A DNA stretch of 64,000 nucleotides, taken from positions 3,286,001-3,350,000 of the forward strand of contig NZ_CP034363.1 of assembly GCF_007981265.1 (NCBI RefSeq), in the 5' to 3' direction. Positions 4,730-19,866 of this stretch are shown here, piece after piece. A program made the translations under genes and the position numbers. Numbering within the stretch: the first letter of the stretch is position 1; every line of letters begins with the position of its first letter. The notes beneath the pieces are model-generated. The model saw only the letters and a program-made list of their open reading frames with translations. It searched no databases and had not been told where the DNA came from. This DNA comes from Pantoea sp. CCBC3-3-1. Its GTDB lineage: Bacteria; Pseudomonadota; Gammaproteobacteria; Enterobacterales; Enterobacteriaceae.

Positions 4730-4806
4730 CGGCACGTAGCGCAGCCTGGTAGCGCACTGTCATGGGGTGTCAGGGGTCGGAGGTTCAAATCCTCTCGTGC
4801 CGACCA
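4730..4806 (+). tRNA. proL: tRNA-Pro (anticodon GGG)
   Basis: 77-nt cloverleaf with encoded CCA. The acceptor stem is CGGCACG/CGTGCCG, the anticodon loop is ATGGGGT, and the T-arm is GGTTCAAATCC. It occupies the same place as E. coli proL, after yejM. Its 3' end, from 4793, is the attachment core of the island to the right. It remains intact because the core sequence is duplicated at 27527-27540. Confidence 0.97.
4793..4806 (+). other. attL core of the tRNA-Pro island
   Basis: The 14 bases TCTCGTGCCGACCA at the tRNA 3' end recur exactly at 27527-27540. The P4-type integrase gene begins about 220 bp downstream. P4-type integrases typically recombine at tRNA 3' ends, so this pair defines an element of about 22.7 kb. 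Confidence 0.85.
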
Positions 4807-4893: not shown

Positions 4894-5023
4894 TTCTATT
4901 GTCTAGTGACGTCCATACTCTTACATTGAAATCCACTGATTTGGGCATATCTCTAGGCTTAGTCATACAGTGACGCGCCGACCAATATGCCTAACACTCT
5001 AAGGACTCTTGTGGAGAGCTAAA

Positions 5024-6289
5024 GTGGCAAGGCAGACCAAACCCCTGACAAATACTGAGATCAAAAACGCTAAGTGTTCAGAACGTGCCATCGTCCTCTA
5101 TGACGGAGACGGACTAGAAATTCAGATCAATCCAGCCGGTTCAAAACTCTGGCGCTTCCGTTACTACAGACCTTTTACAAGCAAACGCACTATCCTCAGC
5201 TTCGGTTCCTACCCAGAAATCTCTCTTTTAGAAGCTCGCCAGTTCCGTACAGACTTCCGAAAACTTCTGCAGCAGGACATTGATCCTCAGGAGCACAGGA
5301 AGGCGCAAAGACTTCAACAAAGAGAAGCAACAGAAAACACATTCGAAAAGGTTGCTGCATTATGGTTTAAGACTAAAGAAGCTGCCGGACTAACCCAGCA
5401 CACGCTAAACGATATCTGGCGCTCCCTTGGTAAATACGTTTTCCCGCACATTGGCTCATTACCTATTTCAAAAATCACTGCTCAGCAATTCATTGGGGCG
5501 CTTGAACCAACTCACTCAGCCGGGAGACTGGAAACGGTCAAACGACTTACGCAACGTATCAACGAAGTCATGGATTACGCTCTCAACGCTGGATTAGTCA
5601 CTTTCAATCCTGCTGCGAGAATCAGCAGAACTTTTCACAAACCAACCGTTAAGCACCGCCCTGCCCTTGCGCCTGAACAACTCCCCCTGCTTATGAAGGC
5701 TCTTGCATTTGCGAGTATTGGCAGACAAACGCGTTGCCTTATCGAATGGCAGTTGCTAACCATGACAAGACCAGCTGAGGCAGCAATGACCCGGTGGGAC
5801 GAGATCAATTTTGAGACAAAGGAATGGCGCATTCCTGCCGGGCGCATGAAAATGAAACGTATGCACATTGTTCCATTGTCTGAGCAGGCACTTGCCGTAT
5901 TAGAAGTCATGAAGCCTATCAGTAAACACAGACCACACGTTTTTCCAGGCTACCGTAATCCACTGGAACCAATGAACAGTCAGACGGCAAACATGGCGCT
6001 GAAACGCATGGGCTTCAAAGACATCCTTGTTGCGCATGGTATGAGATCCATAGCCTCAACTGTTCTCAATGAGAAAGGGTTTCAGCCTGACGTAATTGAA
6101 GCAGCATTGGCACACATTGATACTAATGAGGTCAGGAGAGCTTACAACCGTTCTCAATATCTGGAGCAACGAAGAGATATGATGGCGTGGTGGGGAAGGC
6201 ATGTTGAACTTTCAGCAAGTGGCAACTACAGCTTTTCATCAGGATTGGAAAATGATTCAGTAAATCATTACCATGATTTAAAAGTATGA
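5024..6289 (+). CDS. P4-type tyrosine integrase of the tRNA-Pro island
   Basis: 421 residues. An N-terminal DUF4102-type arm-binding domain (PLTNTEIKNAK, DGLEIQINPAGSKLWRFRY) is followed by a core-binding region and a catalytic domain. Catalytic signatures are TMTRPAE (Arg), HGMRSIAS (His-x-x-Arg), LAHIDTNEVRRAYNRS (His and Tyr nucleophile). A GTG start at 5024 was chosen because GGAGAG lies about 7 bases upstream and P4 integrases begin near this sequence; a TTG start at 5009 is also open. It lies next to attL and should catalyse site-specific insertion and excision at tRNA-Pro. Confidence 0.93.
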   Translation: MARQTKPLTNTEIKNAKCSERAIVLYDGDGLEIQINPAGSKLWRFRYYRPFTSKRTILSFGSYPEISLLEARQFRTDFRKLLQQDIDPQEHRKAQRLQQREATENTFEKVAALWFKTKEAAGLTQHTLNDIWRSLGKYVFPHIGSLPISKITAQQFIGALEPTHSAGRLETVKRLTQRINEVMDYALNAGLVTFNPAARISRTFHKPTVKHRPALAPEQLPLLMKALAFASIGRQTRCLIEWQLLTMTRPAEAAMTRWDEINFETKEWRIPAGRMKMKRMHIVPLSEQALAVLEVMKPISKHRPHVFPGYRNPLEPMNSQTANMALKRMGFKDILVAHGMRSIASTVLNEKGFQPDVIEAALAHIDTNEVRRAYNRSQYLEQRRDMMAWWGRHVELSASGNYSFSSGLENDSVNHYHDLKV

Positions 6290-6393: not shown

Positions 6394-7560
6394 ATGATTT
6401 ATCAGTGTTACTCATGCAGCAAGACATCTTTCGAAATTATTTGTCCCTGGTGTTCTGGCGGAGTACCAACTGTAACGAATTCATGGGGCACAAAAACGCC
6501 CACCCCTATTACCTCAGAACAAATGATCCCTCTTAATCCCTCTTTTTATCCAGAATTTCAGTATCAGTCAAAAGGAATTATAAAAGACTTGTTCGGGAAA
6601 AAGAAAGAGCAGTCCCAACTCAATAGTCTCTTGCAAAATGTTTTAGATAAATATGCAACGTTTAAGGATCCTTATTTCACTAATTTCATTTACACAACAA
6701 AGTTCTCACATGATAAGCGATCAGAAAGTGATTTATCGGAAGACAAAAGCACTTATTCTGATTTTGTATTATTTCGTGAAGTACTTGTTCGAAAGGGGTT
6801 TAATGAATTGGAAGAGCTGCCAATGCTTTTGGACAAGCTTTTACTTACTACATCATTTAACGCTGTATATAACGGGTTTGCGAAAGAGATCAAAAGACAT
6901 ATCAAACCTACATTAACAGAATCTTTAAAATCATGGATTGAAGAAGCAGGAACGACATTTAGATCTGATCTATCATTGTTTCTATACTTTGTCTGGAGCA
7001 ATAACATAGCCTTCTCTGCATTAGAATTCGATGAGAACGCACAAAATACTCCCGGAAAACCATTGATCTCAATTGATAATGTTAGAAAGTATATATCAAT
7101 CTGTGAAACTATATATTTTGACATACTGGTAGAAAGATTGGCTATACGCCTCGAACATTTCAATCCCGATAAATATGTTAATATGTACTCAGTTGATTCA
7201 ATGAATGGTTTTGAATTTGAAGACTTTTTAGTCAAGATATTCCAAACTCTTGGATACGATGTTAAAGAAACCAAGAGAACTCAAGATCAAGGTGCAGATC
7301 TATTTGTCACTCGTTTCGATAAAAATATTGTTATTCAGGCAAAAAACTATTCTGGCTCAGTTGGTAATTCAGCAGTACAACAAGCTATCTCCGCTAAGGC
7401 ATTTTACTCATGTGACGAAGCAATGGTTATTACAAATTCATATTTCACCAATTCGGCTAAAGAACTTGCTGAATCAGCAAAAGTACGTTTGATTGACAGA
7501 AATGAATTACAGAAATATTTGGAAGATTATAACCAAAAAATAATTGAAGACTTCGAATAA
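6394..7560 (+). CDS. Mrr-type restriction endonuclease domain protein with N-terminal zinc ribbon
   Basis: 388 residues. The N-terminus has two CxxC pairs (Cys5/Cys8 and Cys17/Cys20), a probable zinc ribbon. The middle is helical and not recognised. The C-terminal about 110 residues form an Mrr-like PD-(D/E)xK fold: FEFEDFLVKIFQTLGYDV, then QDQGADLFV and IVIQAKNY (catalytic D and QxK). Mrr-family enzymes cut methylated or foreign DNA, so phage or plasmid defence is likely. Shine-Dalgarno AAAAGGAAA precedes the ATG. Base composition is AT-rich like the rest of the island. No methyltransferase is nearby. Confidence 0.8.
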   Translation: MIYQCYSCSKTSFEIICPWCSGGVPTVTNSWGTKTPTPITSEQMIPLNPSFYPEFQYQSKGIIKDLFGKKKEQSQLNSLLQNVLDKYATFKDPYFTNFIYTTKFSHDKRSESDLSEDKSTYSDFVLFREVLVRKGFNELEELPMLLDKLLLTTSFNAVYNGFAKEIKRHIKPTLTESLKSWIEEAGTTFRSDLSLFLYFVWSNNIAFSALEFDENAQNTPGKPLISIDNVRKYISICETIYFDILVERLAIRLEHFNPDKYVNMYSVDSMNGFEFEDFLVKIFQTLGYDVKETKRTQDQGADLFVTRFDKNIVIQAKNYSGSVGNSAVQQAISAKAFYSCDEAMVITNSYFTNSAKELAESAKVRLIDRNELQKYLEDYNQKIIEDFE

Positions 7561-9267: not shown

Positions 9268-10836
9268 TCACACCCAGCCGTATTTTAGTTTATCATACAA
9301 ACAAGCCAATTTTTTAAAGTAAGTTGCATAACTTGAATTATCAGGGTTAATTTTATCAATATTTGCAATAAGAAAATCTCGAGTAACATCAAGATCAATT
9401 TTATCCCAAAGGAATGGAATATAGATCGCAGCTGACTCAGGAGTACAGTGTTCAATTATATATTCAGTATCCTTACCTTTAAATTTTCTTACGTAAGAAC
9501 GTAAATAAGTAGAACACTGGTAGCTTTTATCTTGGCGGAGAACCCACTTATCTAGATTAAGAGAAGACCTTTTGTAGTCGTCGAAACTTTCAATATCTAC
9601 TTCCTTTAAATATTTGAAAACAGGTATGTTAGGCGAATGCTTTCCAGCATTAGGAATTACACTATCTAAAATACTATTGGCATGATATTTTTTATTACCT
9701 TTTAGCAAGTCTTCAAATAAGTCCAAATTTCGTATTTGTGTGTACCCGATCATGCCTACTTCGTCTTCTTTTTTCTTTGCGGCTGCTACTCCCACACCAA
9801 CAACAAATTCAACATCTTCATGTTTTTCGACCTCATCAATATCTACTACATAGATCTTTTTCTCAGGCTCGTTAGATTGAACTAAATTATAAAGCTCTTC
9901 CTTACAATACCTTAGTATTCTTGCTGGTATTTTTCTTTTATTTTCGTCTATGGCCTCATAAATTGGTAAAAAATCATCAGTTCGGATTAACGTAATAGGA
10001 ATCTGTACGCCATCAATCGCAGTATAAGTTTCAGAGACTGTTGGTTCTTCGATACCTTCTTCTCGCTGAACAAATATCAAATTATTTCGAAGTTGATGTA
10101 GATTGTCGCTGCCAATACATACAGAAATCGCACTAAGTAAATCACTAATATTTTTATCAGAAAGTGAGTAACCTAGAAAAACAACAGGATGCTCAACAAA
10201 AATTGTTATTAGCTTCGCTGCAAGATAAGGATTTTTTAAATTAAAATCCACATAATCATAGTCAGTTAAAACCAGAGACTTAGGTTTGTGAGCGCTTCCA
10301 TGGATTTTATATATCTCGGCAATTGATTGCGGATTTGAGAAAAGCAATTCATTCTGCCCAGTATAAATCTTATAGTCAGGGAATAGCTGCTCAAGTAAAC
10401 AGTCCCAATTAGTAGTGATAAGCCCGTCTACGTTAAGATTTGATAATAAATTTATTTCTTGAATATATAGGCTATCGCTCAAAGGTTTTTGAACAGCTTT
10501 GGTCAATATGTCACAGATTTCAAAACGCATTGCAGAAGTTTTATCAGTAACTCTCTTACTAAATTTCTCACGGCTAGAGGAATATAAATCGTCGGTCCAC
10601 CATTCATTATTGAAATCTTCTGCTATAAGCCGTGCAGCTGTAGGGTATGTGCCATCTCCGCTTGAAAGATAATACTCAAATGGTTTTTTTGCACTGCAAA
10701 AAACTGATAGCAATTCGGCCCAATCAGGCAACCCTATGTATCTCCTTGAAAATCCAGAACCTACAAAAAGAAAAGGCCCTGCACTGCGTTGTCCAAAAAT
10801 ATTAACTAAAATTTCTTTTAACTCATCGTTAGCCAT
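9268..10836 (-). CDS. SIR2-domain protein, probable NAD-depleting anti-phage effector
   Basis: 522 residues. The N-terminal about 280 residues carry SIR2-like signatures: FLFVGSGFSRR (nucleotide-binding loop), LITTNWDCLLE, IYKIHGSAHKP (catalytic-type His) and VVFLGYSLSD. The C-terminal half is unrecognised and may sense the trigger. In systems such as Thoeris ThsA and DSR proteins, SIR2 domains cleave NAD+ and abort infection. No TIR, Ago, HerA or other usual partner gene is adjacent, so this looks like a single-gene system. Two ATG codons are adjacent (10839, 10836); GGAG spacing favours the second. Confidence 0.75.
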   Translation of the reverse strand: MANDELKEILVNIFGQRSAGPFLFVGSGFSRRYIGLPDWAELLSVFCSAKKPFEYYLSSGDGTYPTAARLIAEDFNNEWWTDDLYSSSREKFSKRVTDKTSAMRFEICDILTKAVQKPLSDSLYIQEINLLSNLNVDGLITTNWDCLLEQLFPDYKIYTGQNELLFSNPQSIAEIYKIHGSAHKPKSLVLTDYDYVDFNLKNPYLAAKLITIFVEHPVVFLGYSLSDKNISDLLSAISVCIGSDNLHQLRNNLIFVQREEGIEEPTVSETYTAIDGVQIPITLIRTDDFLPIYEAIDENKRKIPARILRYCKEELYNLVQSNEPEKKIYVVDIDEVEKHEDVEFVVGVGVAAAKKKEDEVGMIGYTQIRNLDLFEDLLKGNKKYHANSILDSVIPNAGKHSPNIPVFKYLKEVDIESFDDYKRSSLNLDKWVLRQDKSYQCSTYLRSYVRKFKGKDTEYIIEHCTPESAAIYIPFLWDKIDLDVTRDFLIANIDKINPDNSSYATYFKKLACLYDKLKYGWV

Positions 10837-11009
10837 CATAACACTCCAAACATGGATTTCATGGTGATCAAGCTATCACAACACACTGTTTTATATGCAA
10901 TAACAAACAAAATAAAAATAAAGCTTTACTTTCTCCTTGAAGTTAATAAGATAAAAAAAATTTATGTATTTTGTCTAATCTATGAAGATACACAAAGGCA
11001 GGAAGCTAG

Positions 11010-12212: not shown

Positions 12213-12599
12213 ATGGATACCACCTATCAACCTCCCCTTGCAGAGAACCTACGTATTCATTGCGTTAGTGTTAGACTGAATAACTCAGAGCTAAATACTT
12301 TGGATCATGAGCGTAAACAATACGCCAAAGGCGAATGGCTTCGAATGTGCTTCATGAAAAACCAACCTGTTATCGTTCCTGAGATCAACAAAGCAGCATG
12401 GAAAACGTTTGGCGAAATAAACCGCAGCCTAAACGCAATTGTTAATCACCTCAACGCGAAACAATCATGTAGCCCTCTGACAAAAACAGAACTCTTCGCT
12501 GTGAAACGTCAAATTAGTGATCTTCGCTCACGTCTCATTACAACCGATCTTTGGAGTATCCCCTCTCATGAAGGGTATGCAGAAGATCAAGCGCGGTAA
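12213..12599 (+). CDS. mobC: MobC-type relaxosome accessory protein
   Basis: 128 residues. The N-terminal part SVRLNNSELNTLDHERKQY, then KGEWLRMCFM resembles a ribbon-helix-helix DNA-binding fold. The middle INKAAWKTFGEINRSLNAIV is the typical MobC signature. MobC proteins bind oriT and assist strand opening for the relaxase. AAGGAG lies 5 bases before the ATG. The gene overlaps the relaxase start by about 30 bp, indicating translational coupling. Confidence 0.8.
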   Translation: MDTTYQPPLAENLRIHCVSVRLNNSELNTLDHERKQYAKGEWLRMCFMKNQPVIVPEINKAAWKTFGEINRSLNAIVNHLNAKQSCSPLTKTELFAVKRQISDLRSRLITTDLWSIPSHEGYAEDQAR

Positions 12600-13809
12600 G
12601 AGTTTTGCTGGGGTTGTCATATACGCATTAAAGCCTGGAACTCACCATAAAACTGACCCGGTGATCATAGGGGGGAACATGCTGGGCGCTTCAGCACCTG
12701 AACTGATTGCTGAGTTCAACGCTTCTGCTTCACTTCGGACAGACGTTGCAAAACCGGTGTGGCACAACTCACTCCGCCTGCCACAAGGTGAATCCCTCAC
12801 AGCGAAGCAGTGGGTTTCATTTGCTGACGACTATATGAATCGCATGGGGTTCAGTGAGACGCACCTGCGCTGCTATGTCATACATGACGACGAGGCAGGT
12901 CAACATATTCATATCATTGCCAGTAGAGTCGACCTGGTAGGAGGGAAGCTCTACCTGGGAAGGAATGAAAACCTAATCAGCACGCGAGTAATTCAGGAAC
13001 TCGAGTCAGCACATGACCTGACCAGAACCATAGGTCCTTCCCCTTTACAGTGCCCTACCGCCTCCAGTAGGCGTAAGAGGCTATCACGAGGTGAGGAACA
13101 GAAAGAGAAGCGCGAGCAGGTCCCGTCTCCGAAGACATTCCTGCAGGACACAATTGATACACTCCTCCGTACTCACAATGACATTCCTAGCTTCGTTGAA
13201 GCACTCCATAAGAACGGTATAACGCCCTTACCAAATATATCATCTACAGGTCGTATGAATGGTTTCGCATTTGACTACGCTGGAATCGCTTTTAAAGCCT
13301 CTCAGTTAGGTAAAGCCTACTCATGGGCGACTTTACAAGAGAAGCTCAGCTACGCACCTGAACGCGACAACCCCCTGCTCTTTTCATTGGAAGCCCCGGC
13401 TATGAGAAGTAATGAGACGGGTGATTCAGTAACAGAAGCTCCGACCCGGGATACTACGCCGTCACTACCGGCTACGTTAGAGTCAGAAATTATTGCACGA
13501 CCTCCCCAGCAGGAACATAGAGTTGAGACAGCGGAAACCTGCGAAGCACATACGCCTGCCAGCATTGTGCTTACAGCACCGGGACAAGCCAACAACAATA
13601 GCTACCTCATGACAGCAGTCATAAAGTGGCTACTGAGCATTCCTTACCTTCAAGTCTTTGCAAAATTGCTCAAAGAGACAGGTAAAACGTTTCTCCACAG
13701 AAAATCCTCATTTTCCGTTATCAGCACGGTTAAATCAGCCGAGCCTGACGTCAAAACTTCAAACGAAACGCCTGAAGAATTTTCAAAAAGCTTATACACG
13801 CCTAATTAG
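12568..13809 (+). CDS. Relaxase/mobilization nuclease (MobA/VirD2-like)
   Basis: 413 residues. The first about 200 residues form the relaxase domain: FAGVVIYALKP near the N-terminus and the metal-binding motif YVIHDDEAGQHIHIIASRV with the HxH pair. The remainder is hydrophilic with a hydrophobic stretch near WLLSIPYLQVF. Relaxases nick oriT and lead DNA into a helper conjugation channel. No type IV secretion genes are in the island, so it is mobilizable rather than self-transmissible. The start at 12568 (MKGMQKIKRGKSF) overlaps mobC; the frame is open 17 codons earlier. Confidence 0.85.
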   Translation: MKGMQKIKRGKSFAGVVIYALKPGTHHKTDPVIIGGNMLGASAPELIAEFNASASLRTDVAKPVWHNSLRLPQGESLTAKQWVSFADDYMNRMGFSETHLRCYVIHDDEAGQHIHIIASRVDLVGGKLYLGRNENLISTRVIQELESAHDLTRTIGPSPLQCPTASSRRKRLSRGEEQKEKREQVPSPKTFLQDTIDTLLRTHNDIPSFVEALHKNGITPLPNISSTGRMNGFAFDYAGIAFKASQLGKAYSWATLQEKLSYAPERDNPLLFSLEAPAMRSNETGDSVTEAPTRDTTPSLPATLESEIIARPPQQEHRVETAETCEAHTPASIVLTAPGQANNNSYLMTAVIKWLLSIPYLQVFAKLLKETGKTFLHRKSSFSVISTVKSAEPDVKTSNETPEEFSKSLYTPN

Positions 13810-15233: not shown

Positions 15234-15263
15234 TTGCAATAAATCATTAAAAAGTGTTATAAA
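15234..15263 (+). promoter_or_regulatory. Candidate promoter of the DRT2 noncoding RNA
   Basis: TTGCAA (15234-15239), 18-bp spacer, TATAAA (15258-15263). The predicted start near 15270 falls exactly at the first hairpin of the RNA. Confidence 0.6.
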
Positions 15264-15269
15264 TCATTT

Positions 15270-15545
15270 GCCCTAAGTGCAGACTTGGGGGAGGTGTACA
15301 GTTTGTCCAGTCCGGGCCAGCGAGCTTCGCAACACGCCGACCAGAGACTGAACAACAGGTGGACGATGCTCATAACGGTCTCCATTAAGCTGATTACATT
15401 ATACAGTGTTTCTAACATTTGCGGTGAAATGCATCTCTGGTTACTTGCGAATCAGTATGTATGAGAAGGTTGGATAAAGACCACTTTGTTAAGCCGGGGC
15501 AATGTTTTTTGGACGACCGCAGTTCAAAGTTGCCCCGGTTTCACA
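15270..15545 (+). ncRNA. Candidate DRT2 noncoding template RNA
   Basis: About 276 nt of noncoding sequence directly before the reverse transcriptase. Structures seen: 5' hairpin CCCTAAGT-GCAG-ACTTGGGG (15271-15290); GCGA-GCT-TCGC (15320-15330); long-range pairing CCAGAGA (15341-15347) with TCTCTGG (15434-15440); a strong 3' stem, CCGGGGCAA (15494-15502) with TTGCCCCGG (15530-15538). Known DRT2 systems use a similar-sized RNA as template for rolling-circle reverse transcription between two ACA motifs. Here ACA at 15298-15300 and ACA at 15415-15417 give a 117-nt unit. RNA ends are estimates from the promoter and terminal stem. Confidence 0.75.
15298..15417 (-). other. neo: Predicted Neo repeat unit (rolling-circle cDNA gene)
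   Basis: Read on the minus strand as a circularly joined 117-nt unit (39 codons). Joining puts TGGACA (complement of 15304-15309) 17 bp before TATAAT (complement of 15398-15403); on the chromosome these are in the wrong order, so the promoter exists only in concatemeric cDNA. GGAGA (complement of 15379-15383) lies 5 bases before ATG (complement of 15371-15373). Translation starts MSIVHLLFSLW, passes the junction at a CTG codon, continues LLETLYNVISLMETV, and re-enters MSIV with no stop. Chance alone leaves a 39-codon frame open about one time in six; the promoter, ribosome site and length together make the case. Confidence 0.7.
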
Positions 15546-15564
15546 ATCCCTGAGAACTAACAAT

Positions 15565-16851
15565 ATGGAATCTCGTGAGCATCCTTGGTTTAGAAAACGT
15601 GGTTATTTGCACTTTGATAAGCCAATTTCTGTAGAGCATGCCTTAGATATAGTTACTAATCCTAATTCGGTTGCCACTCATTCGTTCCTTCCGTTTATAA
15701 CATTTACTTCGACTACTTTTAAAATCCATAAAGACAAGGGAAAAAACGCAATAGAAAAAACGATAAAAGAAAGGCCCATAGCGTATTCCTCTCACATCGA
15801 TAGTCATATCTATTCTTATTATTCTGAAATCCTCGACTACCTGTATGAGGAACAGTTACACACTCACAATATATCCAAAAATATACTAGCGTTCAGAGCG
15901 TTAGGTAAAAGTAATATTGAGTTTGCTAATGCAGCCTTTCAGGAAATAAAACGGAGAGGTAATTGCAGTGCGGTTGCTTTAGACTTATCTAAATTTTTTG
16001 ACACTCTGGACCATTCTATATTAAAAGATGCTTGGTGTAGATTGCTGACTACTGACATTTTACCCCGAGATCATTATGCTGTTTTCAAAGCTATTACAAA
16101 ATACTCTAAAGTAGATAAAGAAAAAGTTTATGAACTTATGGCTATTCCTAAAAATAATGCAAAACACGCAAAAAAGACAAGGAAGCAAATTTGCTCATTT
16201 GCAGAATTCAGGAATAAAGTTAGGAAATCAAGCCTTATAGTACCTAATAAAGCTAATTTTGGTATTCCGCAAGGTTCTCCGATAAGTGCCCTTCTTTCAA
16301 ACATCTATATGTTGAACTTCGACATTGAGATGGATCAATACGCGTCTTCATTAGGTGGGGAATATTTTCGCTATTGCGATGACATGCTTTTTATTGTACC
16401 TACGCATGAAAAAAACAATGTAGCTGGTGAGGCAGAAAAACGCTTGATTAAACTTAAAGTTTCTCTAAATGTCAAGAAAACAGAAATTAGAGAATTTAAA
16501 GCAACTCCAACAAAAATTACATCTGATAAACCACTTCAATATCTAGGTTTTATTTTCGATGGAGATAATATTTTTCTTAGATCCTCATCTCTTTCACGCT
16601 ATTCTGACAGAATGAAGCGTGGAGTTAAGCTGGCAAAAGCAACTATGAAGCGAAAGAATAAAATAAGAAAAAATAAAGGACTACCAGACAAAGAACTTTT
16701 TAAGGAAAAGGTTTATGCACGTTATGCTCATGTAGGAAAGCGAAACTTTTTAACTTATGGATATCGTGCTTCACGCATTATGAATTCTAACTCAATAAGA
16801 AAGCAGTTGAAACCTTTGTGGGAGAGATTGCAAAAAGAGATCCAAAAGTAA
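15565..16851 (+). CDS. drt2: DRT2 (UG2)-type antiviral reverse transcriptase
   Basis: 428 residues. Reverse transcriptase blocks are present: ALDLSKFFD with the first catalytic Asp (about 138-146), GIPQGSPISALLSN (233-246), YCDD with the other two catalytic Asp (270-273), then LQYLGF. The N-terminus HPWFRKRGYLHFDKP and RPIAYSSHIDSHIYSYY match my recollection of DRT2 proteins. No extra nuclease or retron partner is fused. In DRT2, phage infection triggers cDNA concatemers that encode a toxic Neo protein. The ATG at 15565 was chosen because the earlier in-frame ATG (15502) lies inside the 3' stem of the noncoding RNA. Confidence 0.85.
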   Translation: MESREHPWFRKRGYLHFDKPISVEHALDIVTNPNSVATHSFLPFITFTSTTFKIHKDKGKNAIEKTIKERPIAYSSHIDSHIYSYYSEILDYLYEEQLHTHNISKNILAFRALGKSNIEFANAAFQEIKRRGNCSAVALDLSKFFDTLDHSILKDAWCRLLTTDILPRDHYAVFKAITKYSKVDKEKVYELMAIPKNNAKHAKKTRKQICSFAEFRNKVRKSSLIVPNKANFGIPQGSPISALLSNIYMLNFDIEMDQYASSLGGEYFRYCDDMLFIVPTHEKNNVAGEAEKRLIKLKVSLNVKKTEIREFKATPTKITSDKPLQYLGFIFDGDNIFLRSSSLSRYSDRMKRGVKLAKATMKRKNKIRKNKGLPDKELFKEKVYARYAHVGKRNFLTYGYRASRIMNSNSIRKQLKPLWERLQKEIQK

Positions 16852-17004: not shown

Positions 17005-17919
17005 ATGAATGAAGAATTTACTTCCCATAATGCCAGTAAAAATAAAAATTCAAGTGATCCCTACGAAGATAGTTCTGCTCAAGATTATTTTAAAAAACCT
17101 TCTGCTAATTTATATTTTAAAAAGCTACTTGGTTGTAGCGATAAATTATATCTCACTAACGGAGATTTAGAGAAGCTTAAAGAGTCATATGATAAGGCCC
17201 ATGACATTAGGAAATTTGAAATAGAACTTTACTGGAAACGCACCACCTATATTTGGACATTAGTGGCTGCATTAATTACAGCATGTGCAATTTTAGCGGC
17301 AGCTTATTATCGTGTCCATGATGCAGACCCTTCAAAAGATAGAGCTCTTAGTGAAACTAGAAATTTTTTACTGGCGTCCTTAGCTGGCGTGTCTTTTTTC
17401 GGTGTTATTATTACTATAACTTCCTCTTTCATACTTAAAAGTGGAGAATATTGGCAGAAAAACTGGGAGTATCATGTAAGCCTATTAGAACCTTTATTTT
17501 CCGGCAGATTATACTCAAGCCTGCTTGATAAAAACAAAAGTCGTTACTCAATCGCTGGGTTAAATAATTTCCTTTATGCTATTTTTCTTTTTCTTTGGAT
17601 TGTGATTTTCGTTATCATTACAATTACACTTTCGAAAGATTTTCCATTTTGGTTTTATTTATCCCCACTTATTATATTTGGTTCTACATTTTTATTAACA
17701 AACACAATTATCTCTTGGAAAACACGCAGAACAACTGACGTCTCTCAGATTGAAATTTCTCAATGGGGGGTAGAGGTTAAGGAAAAAACATCAAAAGAAA
17801 GCAAAGAAACCTCTCGACTACATTACATATTAGAAACAACACTAAAGATTGTGAAAATTTTAACATATTGTTTTTTAGCAGTTATACTCGGAAATGTAAT
17901 CTACCACCAATTATTTTAA
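17005..17919 (+). CDS. RipA-like membrane protein
   Basis: 304 residues. A hydrophilic N-terminal about 75 residues precede FEIELYWKRTTYIW and a membrane helix, a second helix (SLAGVSFFGVIITITSSF) followed by GEYWQKNWEYHVSLLE, then two more hydrophobic stretches and a C-terminal helix. The WQKNWE-HV pattern after the second helix recalls the RipA family of octameric inner-membrane proteins; the match is by eye. It lies 153 bp after the reverse transcriptase on the same strand and is a possible but unproven partner. Shine-Dalgarno AAGGAAAA precedes the ATG. Confidence 0.55.
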   Translation: MNEEFTSHNASKNKNSSDPYEDSSAQDYFKKPSANLYFKKLLGCSDKLYLTNGDLEKLKESYDKAHDIRKFEIELYWKRTTYIWTLVAALITACAILAAAYYRVHDADPSKDRALSETRNFLLASLAGVSFFGVIITITSSFILKSGEYWQKNWEYHVSLLEPLFSGRLYSSLLDKNKSRYSIAGLNNFLYAIFLFLWIVIFVIITITLSKDFPFWFYLSPLIIFGSTFLLTNTIISWKTRRTTDVSQIEISQWGVEVKEKTSKESKETSRLHYILETTLKIVKILTYCFLAVILGNVIYHQLF

Positions 17920-18189: not shown

Positions 18190-18522
18190 ATGGATATGAA
18201 TAAACTACAAATCGAACAACTTTTACGACAGGAAGGGTTCACACCTAAAGAAATTTCCGTGATTCGTCAACATGCTGAGAAAGACGCCTACCCCTACCCT
18301 TGGTTGTTATCTCAACTTTCAAAGAGATTTGTTGTTTCCATTATCCTGCTGCTCATACTTTTCGCAGGCTTTATCTTCACATTGAGTCATGGCACTCATG
18401 AAAACCTTGTCTCTTACTCAATTACGTTTTTAATAGGTTTCGGAATCATGTATGTTTTCGTTCCATTGAAACCTGCATTTAAAGCATTCAGATTCATGAG
18501 AAAGCATGGTCATTCATTATAA
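18190..18522 (+). CDS. Small two-helix membrane protein, candidate immunity protein
   Basis: 110 residues. A soluble N-terminal domain (LRQEGFTPKEISVIRQHAEK) is followed by two membrane helices (about 46-66 and 74-93) and a basic tail. The family is not recognised. Its 3' end overlaps by 13 bp the convergent DUF4225 gene. Small membrane proteins beside toxin-like genes often give immunity, but orientation is convergent here rather than operonic, so this is only a suggestion. ATG codons at 18190 and 18196 are both possible. Confidence 0.55.
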   Translation: MDMNKLQIEQLLRQEGFTPKEISVIRQHAEKDAYPYPWLLSQLSKRFVVSIILLLILFAGFIFTLSHGTHENLVSYSITFLIGFGIMYVFVPLKPAFKAFRFMRKHGHSL

Positions 18523-19301
18523 TTATCACTGATAGATTTGATCGCCATACCGTCGTTATAGACTTCAATAAACAGCTCTTTTCTACTCATTTCCTTTATA
18601 CCGCGAACGTAATCAGTATTGAGGAAGTAGAAAAGCCTCCATGCCTCCGGTTTCTGAACCAGGCGAACAATGCCATACACCGATAACGCCAGATCCGTTG
18701 AGCTATAGGCTATCTGTCCAACCTTTTGATCGAAGCCCAAAAATTCCGCTGTAGCTACATAGCCCTGCTTCAACAACCCTTCGCTATCGCTTTTGCCATA
18801 AATCAGATTCTCAACTGATTCCTGAACACCGTTTAACCCATGGAGCACTAGCATTCCGCCAAAAGCTGTTCCAATGATTGTTCCGGTAGCAAGGGAAGCG
18901 CCAACGACCGATACTCCGGCTATAACCTGCAGGCCACTTAGAACTACACCTACTCCATTTATCACATAGCCCCAGATATCTCCCTTCTTAACGAGCTCAA
19001 CTGACGCATGTACAGCAGCTGTACCAGCACGAAGCATTCTGTCCTGAATCGTTAGATATTCATTTTCCTTTTTCAGATTCTGTATGCAGTTCTGGCACTG
19101 CTCATCTGAAGATCCTGACCGTATTATGTTAAGTTGAGCATTCACAAAAGCTTTAACATCGTCCTGAAACTGCAAGCGATTAAGCCCGTCTTTAAGATAG
19201 ATAAGAGACAGGTGATTAGCATGAGCAAGAAGCTGATTTGCCTCTGCATTTGCCATTGTCAGGAAGTAATCTGCGAATCTGTTCGGTTTCCAGTAGTCCA
19301 T
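18510..19301 (-). CDS. DUF4225-domain protein, probable secreted toxin or effector
   Basis: 263 residues. The C-terminal half has the DUF4225 pattern: GYVINGVGVVLSGLQVIAGV, GFGGM-type glycine-rich hydrophobic segment, GYVATAEFLGFDQKVGQIAY and PEAWRLFYFLNTDYVRGIK. Glycine-rich amphipathic segments near 110-155 could insert into membranes. DUF4225 proteins are frequent near Hcp genes and type VI secretion islands, and are considered candidate effectors. The gene is divergent from hcp, with starts 82 bp apart. Function inferred from context only. Confidence 0.65.
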   Translation of the reverse strand: MDYWKPNRFADYFLTMANAEANQLLAHANHLSLIYLKDGLNRLQFQDDVKAFVNAQLNIIRSGSSDEQCQNCIQNLKKENEYLTIQDRMLRAGTAAVHASVELVKKGDIWGYVINGVGVVLSGLQVIAGVSVVGASLATGTIIGTAFGGMLVLHGLNGVQESVENLIYGKSDSEGLLKQGYVATAEFLGFDQKVGQIAYSSTDLALSVYGIVRLVQKPEAWRLFYFLNTDYVRGIKEMSRKELFIEVYNDGMAIKSISDNYNE

Positions 19302-19383
19302 GACTGACCCTTTATGTCATTATGTATATCTATAAGTTTATTTAATCAGATAAGTTTGCTGAGTGAAAGAAAAAGGGCCAATC

Positions 19384-19866
19384 ATGAGTACTGATCTCTT
19401 CTTAAAAATCGACGGCATTACAGGTGAATCTCAGGACAGCAACCACAAAGGCTGGATCAACGTAGACTCTTTCACATGGGGTGCAACACAACCTGGTAAT
19501 ATGTCAGTTGGGGGCGGCGGCGGCGCTGGTAAGGTCCAGTTTCGCGATCTAACAGTACAGACCCAAATCGACAAAGCAACACCCGCTATCATGCGATACG
19601 TCTCAAACGGCAAGCATATCGGCAAAATAGAGCTATCAGTCTGTAAAGCAGGCGGCAGCCAGATAGAGTATTGCCGTATAACTCTGGAAGACGTATTAAT
19701 CACAAACGTAACATTCCATGGTACGACAAATCGTGACCTTATCGGATTGTCCTACCAGTTTCAGGCTTCAAAAGTCAAAACCCAGTATTGGGAGCAGTCC
19801 TCTACTGGCGGCAAAGGCGCAGAAAGTCAGTCAGGTTGGAATATTAAGACCAGTCAAGAAATTTAG
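19384..19866 (+). CDS. hcp: Hcp-family type VI secretion protein
   Basis: 160 residues, full Hcp length. MSTDLFLKIDGITGES, GWINVDSFTWGATQPG and KATPAIMRYVSNGKHI are Hcp family signatures. Hcp hexamers form the type VI secretion tube and carry small effectors within their lumen. This is an orphan copy: no tss genes are in the window, so it would depend on a type VI system elsewhere. A glycine-rich loop (MSVGGGGGAGK) is notable. The start at MSTDL was chosen because AGGG lies about 8 bases upstream; the frame is open seven codons earlier. Confidence 0.92.
   Translation: MSTDLFLKIDGITGESQDSNHKGWINVDSFTWGATQPGNMSVGGGGGAGKVQFRDLTVQTQIDKATPAIMRYVSNGKHIGKIELSVCKAGGSQIEYCRITLEDVLITNVTFHGTTNRDLIGLSYQFQASKVKTQYWEQSSTGGKGAESQSGWNIKTSQEI

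Follow-up and report, generated by a model that had tools for sequence, protein, structure and literature searches.

A DRT2 locus of Pantoea sp. CCBC3-3-1 predicted to yield an endless Neo gene upon head-to-tail copying, and variation of the jump triplets among its relatives

The stretch of DNA analyzed here, called the window, comprises 64,000 nt of Pantoea sp. CCBC3-3-1 (NZ_CP034363.1, positions 3,286,001-3,350,000, forward strand) and contains a reverse transcriptase (RT) gene preceded by a noncoding RNA (ncRNA) region (Table 1). The RT, which a first-pass annotation of the sequence had described as DRT2-like, was confirmed as Drt2 by PADLOC (1.9e-206) and by the NCBIfam model NF041746 (590 bits against a cut-off of 390), with an RT-12 scaffold beside it. 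It also matches over its full length (576 bits) the 425-aa Drt2 chain 9c0i, which we take to be the Klebsiella enzyme. An assignment of the RT to Retron, Drt3a, Drt4 or group II intron was rejected, the six corresponding NCBIfam models giving 20.6-79 bits against cut-offs of 200-600, and PADLOC, run without cut-offs, returned Drt9 for the same protein at 3.2e-17 versus the value given above for Drt2. An alternative longer RT start, the ATG at 15502 (449 aa), falls within the RT-12 scaffold. The RF03016 match spans the scaffold only, the template with the Neo unit lying outside it. The TATAAA of the likely promoter of the ncRNA and RT is kept in the window and in the 10 close relatives displayed with intact upstream DNA, and one pair of the 5' handle hairpin is altered on both sides in 6 of the 11 rows of the consensus fold.

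The DRT2 locus likely lies in a mobile defence island, the same window carrying a tRNA-Pro, a tyrosine integrase, an Mrr-type nuclease, a SIR2_2 gene and a relaxase. The final 14-18 nt of the tRNA as matched by Rfam have no exact second copy elsewhere in the window. By a distant blastn search, DRT2-like DNA proved rare among E. coli genomes, being detected in 3 of 5426, two of the three loci being near-copies that lie in prophage according to annotation. An 8xMP gene starts 153 nt after the RT, and its counterpart in locus L007 is annotated as 'RipA family octameric membrane protein'. Such a gene was found by tblastn beside DRT2 in the window and in L010 (84% identity), L007 (75%), L012 (55%) and L011 (55%), and in none of the other loci of the set, whose flanks in most cases extend no further than 3 kb. 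In this sub-clade the DRT2 module may include it as a second gene. Further along lie a gene for a type VI secretion system (T6SS) tube protein and, adjoining it on the opposite strand, a DUF4225 gene.

Table 1. Features of the window in order of position, numbered from its first base
Feature	Position	Strand	Remarks
tRNA-Pro	4730-4806		
Tyrosine integrase	5009-6289		
Mrr_cat (Mrr-type) nuclease	6394-7560		
SIR2_2 gene	9268-10839	-	Matches PADLOC PDC-S25
MobA/VirD2-like relaxase	12517-13809		
Likely promoter of ncRNA and RT	15234-15263	+	TTGCAA 15234-15239, 18 nt, TATAAA 15258-15263; inferred
5' handle hairpin of ncRNA	15271-15290	+	Consensus fold of 11 sequences, columns 17-36
ACA-1	15298-15300	+	First three bases of template, copied last in each round; read directly, role by homology to PMC11100668
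Template unit	15298-15414	+	117 nt; predicted head-to-tail reverse transcription
Linear part of Neo frame	15299-15412	-	38 of 39 codons; last codon spans junction
-35 box of joined promoter	15304-15309	-	TGGACA; one mismatch to TTGACA
Predicted neo start codon	15371-15373	-	ATG
Shine-Dalgarno of neo	15379-15383	-	GGAGA; 5 nt before ATG
-10 box of joined promoter	15398-15403	-	TATAAT
RT-12 ncRNA scaffold	15413-15547	+	Rfam RF03016; 86.8 bits, E 2.1e-13, model positions 1-117 of 117
ACA-2	15415-15417	+	Proposed landing site of nascent cDNA end; read directly, role by homology
DRT2 reverse transcriptase	15565-16851	+	428 aa; YCDD active site
8xMP gene (PF24838)	17005-17919	+	
DUF4225 gene	18510-19301	opposite to Hcp/TssD	
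T6SS tube protein (Hcp/TssD) gene	19363-19866		61.6 bits against a cut-off of 58.9

The first-pass annotation had proposed that two ACA motifs delimit a 117-nt unit whose head-to-tail joining assembles a gene, and direct reading of the DNA located the motifs, the unit, both promoter boxes, the GGAGA and the ATG at the coordinates of Table 1. Upon joining, the arrangement TGGACA-17-TATAAT is obtained, the 17-bp spacer being made of 6 + 11 bp across the junction. The same reading bore out the position of the GGAGA relative to the ATG and an endless frame: at 39 codons per unit, the Neo frame is stop-free through any number of joined units, and the other two cDNA-strand frames of the joined unit contain stops. 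A unit not divisible by three, which the annotation regarded as incompatible with its proposal, is absent, since 117 nt is divisible. A second in-frame ATG (complement of 15383-15385) overlaps the GGAG. The single Neo unit is predicted to be helical (residues 2-31, mean pLDDT 79.5, pTM 0.41), in agreement with the helical Neo described in PMC11100668.

The template might instead be copied and joined elsewhere, for instance at other ACA triplets, three further pairs of which lie at a suitable distance in the window. The best of these scores 9/12, its 83-nt unit lacking an open frame, and neither of the others exceeds 7; it is the pair at 15298/15415 that all 11 aligned ncRNAs retain, so that a junction elsewhere is scarcely credible. 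As to chance, we scanned for two ACA triplets 90-160 nt apart whose joining creates a -35 box of at least 5/6, a 17-bp spacer and a -10 box of at least 5/6. The dinucleotide-shuffled window (5.12 million strand-bases) yielded 2 matches, neither reaching the 11/12 of the real site. In 874,444 strand-bases of real DNA, i.e. the window and the fetched viral loci without a DRT2 RT, only the Pantoea site and L019 matched, the latter with a score of 10, an open frame and no start signals. The probability of 15 percent that the annotation gave for an open frame arising by chance holds for one named frame, and for any of three frames it becomes about 39 percent by arithmetic; the view that the 15 percent figure settles the matter was thus rejected. 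The frame by itself is therefore weak evidence, and it is the comparative evidence that carries the case.

When the ncRNAs of the window and its close relatives were aligned (11 sequences), ACA-1, the -10 box and ACA-2 were invariant and the -35 box showed at most one mismatch: it is TGGACA also in L007 and L010, TTGCCA in L093 and TTGACA in the rest. The TGGACA form, one off the consensus, is shared by the window with only L007 and L010 among the loci scanned. Two further close units from a pattern scan of viral contigs brought the set to 13, and the Neo frame, which the annotation expected to be uninterrupted in homologues, has no stop in the window or in the 12 close relatives; it is the sole frame of the six that is stop-free in 13/13 units, which were picked blind to frame. 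The unit of L092 has 105 nt owing to a 12-nt in-frame deletion, and its frame is still open. Among the 12 rows other than L092, the pN/pS of the Neo frame was 0.57, the lowest of the six and a value reached by 6 of 200 column shuffles, with one RNA-strand frame nearly as low (0.62); restricted to the three closest units, the comparison does not distinguish the Neo frame (0.44) from other frames (0.43 and 0.47). Purifying selection on the Neo frame is thus modest. The alignment of the RNA region, suggested in the annotation as a check, also gave a consensus fold of 75 pairs, 14 of them with changes on both sides. In the clade of the window, ACA-2 also pairs with the TGT directly 5' of ACA-1, and part of the conservation of ACA-2 may therefore reflect RNA structure.

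A search of genome contigs and viral contigs with the single RT protein as query found no close relatives, and the alignment used as query retrieved 65 genome loci and 80 viral loci, 73 of the latter matching just part of the RT at 24-43% identity. At the protein level, 1248 RTs reached E <= 1e-60 out of 7987 candidates scored. The earliest scans of these loci rewarded open frames and pairing triplets, i.e. they were not neutral, and they were therefore rerun blind to frame and then with selection by promoter alone. The blind rerun, in fixed geometry and for ACA/ACA pairs whose promoter scores 9/12 or more, covered 74 loci: the window, L002, two E. coli loci, six viral loci and 64 of the 65 loci from the alignment-based genome search. 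Left out were L003-L006 and L090, which were judged to be the same places as L101, L125, L109, L116 and L093, the near-copy of L007 (L009), L014 and L091 (both lacking a template, with a truncated or disrupted RT) and the RT fragment L156. An ACA/ACA pair was found in 45 of the 74 loci, and 43 of the 45 have an open frame and a unit length that is a multiple of three, counts that are not independent given that the loci are related. Of the two exceptions, L108 fits an ACA/ATA unit of 111 nt and L109 an ACA/ACA unit of 129 nt. L115 and L136 entered the 43 through a 99-nt pair judged wrong, their 111-nt ACA/ATA unit scoring 12/12. Nine of the remaining 29 loci fit with changed triplets (L016, L099, L120, L121, L122, L125, L126, L134 and L135). 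No fitting unit or recognizable joined promoter appeared in the scans of L002 (Agarivorans, same place as L247) and L095 (Marinomonas fungiae), with RT identities of 56-59%, L095 matching the scaffold and not the template; no consistent unit was found in the 18 distant loci L138-L155 (Bacteroidota and Sphingomonas, RT 28-36%). A fixed-geometry scan that still required pairing triplets gave a joined promoter in 63 of 82 loci. Of these 63, fifty belong to the five triplet classes, all with an open frame; in L103, L109, L118, L119 and L129 a closed alternative was picked though an open ACA/ACA unit of 117, 129, 126, 138 and 153 nt, respectively, exists, and the other eight comprise loci of greater distance and a copy in the wrong orientation (L245, judged to be the same place as L104).

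A reading of the region as merely a structured RNA, with the promoter boxes and the open frame on the complement as by-products of RNA conservation, would account for its high conservation and for the fold described above, whose predicted stems cover parts of the template. Folding, however, does not demand accepted unit lengths (99-153 nt) that are divisible by three, nor that a deletion be in frame; neither does it demand the identical reading phase relative to the junction seen in 50/50 open units or the Shine-Dalgarno word and start present in the Neo frame of 46 of them by a rule that has no computed chance level (L128 and L131-L133 being open and lacking the word by that rule). In addition, the Neo frame alone is stop-free in all 13 close rows. 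We consider a purely structural role very improbable. Across the wider set the Neo protein is poorly kept apart from the promoter-encoded residues, as is likewise reported in PMC12039810. In L130 (Pectobacterium sp. PL152) the RT translation stops after 77 aa, the template and Neo frame being intact.

The sequence itself shows the RT and the RNA scaffold, both ACA triplets, and the promoter, ribosome site, start and open frame that result from joining, together with their conservation in relatives. The locus is a member of DRT2 by every sequence-level feature tested. The stretch 15298-15414 is, with high confidence, the template of a DRT2 ncRNA, predicted to be copied head to tail by the adjoining Drt2 RT, each join creating a promoter and a stop-free Neo gene. 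We infer that the mechanism is the published DRT2 one and that cDNA, Neo, arrest and defence also occur at the Pantoea locus. By homology, the RT would copy the template up to ACA-1, the cDNA end TGT would be released and base-pair with ACA-2, and copying would resume at 15414. Phage infection would then lead to double-stranded repeats transcribed from the joined promoter, and translation would give repeats of MSIVHLLFSLWSACCEARWPGLDKLLETLYNVISLMETV, the predicted Neo. The promoter and the stop-less gene are thus predicted to exist only after phage attack, on head-to-tail DNA. Neo, as a repeating protein, would likely arrest the infected cell.

ACA-1 and ACA-2 are described as conserved in both PMC12039810 and PMC11100668. 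ACA/ACA is not universal among the loci fetched here. When units were chosen by promoter score only, with no rule on triplet or frame, 46 of 81 loci had one best pair of at least 11/12, including 28 ACA/ACA loci among which are the close relatives of the window. The triplets are able to pair in 39 of the 46 (30 identical, 9 with one wobble), and in the control, with both triplets slid 1-12 bases either way, pairing occurred in at most 13 of 46. The frame is open in 38 of the 39 pairing loci versus 1 of the 7 non-pairing ones (L170), two of which, L096 and L105, nevertheless have an open 120-nt ACA/ACA unit each. The lone closed pairing locus, L241, carries ACT/ACT at 145 nt. This locus, on a Nitratidesulfovibrio plasmid (upstream of 3977), has a 12/12 joined promoter and a unit not divisible by three; if read as 144 nt, with a spacer of 16 bp, it has an open frame. 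The other variants are ACA/ATA in Photobacterium and Vibrio and, from a non-blind scan, in Proteus, ACA/GCA in Pseudomonas and Thiotrichaceae, ATA/ATA in Moritella (L125) and GCA/GCA in the Neisseria MAG L134; L126, L134 and L135 lie outside the 46 blind-selected loci. The promoter spacing is kept across the triplet variants, and so is the reading frame except for ACT/ACT.

Since the triplets vary in relatives and stay able to pair, the jump is probably guided by pairing and not by the letters ACA. These data support template jumping via a three-base cDNA:RNA duplex, under which ACA/ACA would have been rewritten to ACA/ATA and ACA/GCA with a wobble, to ATA/ATA and GCA/GCA, and perhaps even to ACT/ACT. 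A quick RT tree with 58 rows, of which 54 were hand-labelled, requires no fewer than 4 changes at site 2 and no fewer than 2 at site 1. Any of the three transitions possible in ACA leaves a wobble pair in place, so that changes at site 2 count for little by themselves, and there are only two site-1 changes, one of them on a long branch (L134). Moritella falls within the same clade as the ACA/ATA rows (SH-aLRT 100), so that the simplest path there leads through a wobble state to a second change that restores the pair. Searches for more loci of the ATA and GCA clades brought no gain. The covariation of ACA-2 with its partners could also stem from the basal RNA stem SL2 rather than from pairing of the cDNA end, and the best local stem does include site 2 in the clade of the window, in L115 and in L136; site 1, however, lies outside this stem and yet changes together with site 2 in L125 and in L134 (the latter, as noted, on a long branch and not in the blind set), and the best local stem of both loci excludes site 2. 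We regard the SL2 explanation as unlikely, albeit one to be reckoned with, and lean towards a restart by a three-base cDNA:RNA duplex under compensatory change, in which case jumping would be a programmable realignment of a telomerase-like kind and would not depend on a fixed motif being recognized.

Pairing-guided jumping is offered as speculation in PMC12039810 and backed by mutants in PMC11100668, and the distant relatives analyzed here suggest that base pairing is likely what directs the copying enzyme to the point of restart. The logic resembles that of the A-B-A' templates of DRT10, where the end of the cDNA is realigned on a segment that recurs in the template; DRT10 differs in that tandem-repeat cDNA is made from a 137-nt ncRNA, is protein-primed and needs a SLATT protein (PMC12632851). 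We found no mention of triplet variants in PMC12039810, PMC11100668, PMC12596737, PMC12632851 or PMC12483538, as far as the available text of each extends, or in the related titles and abstracts listed. The departure of the jump triplets from the published ACA/ACA thus appears to be new.

According to PMC12039810 and PMC11100668, the endless-gene mechanism had already been reported for Klebsiella, and the Pantoea locus resembles the Klebsiella pneumoniae DRT2 in its RT family, in its upstream ncRNA with a 3' scaffold and an ACA-flanked template, and in its joined -35/-10 promoter with a 17-bp spacer, ribosome site, start and endless frame. The two differ in the unit (117 nt versus 120), in the TGGACA box and in the Neo sequence, and the Pantoea locus is known from its sequence alone. 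The annotation had considered the repeat length and the Neo sequence new for this lineage: the sequence is, and the length is not, because 117 nt is the repeat of most of the 42 homologues in PMC12039810, where the mechanism is also published, so that neither unit length nor logic is novel. For this lineage, the novelty lies in the Neo sequence, in the TGGACA box and in the genomic setting.

Taken together, these results extend one of the strangest known routes of gene expression to a further lineage, which has a Neo sequence of its own, and show that the rules for promoter and frame apply even to relatives with an RT identity of about 46%. The triplet variants may partly explain why Neo is harder to annotate in divergent clades, a difficulty noted in PMC11100668, and, being natural, they provide ready-made material for testing how the RT jumps.
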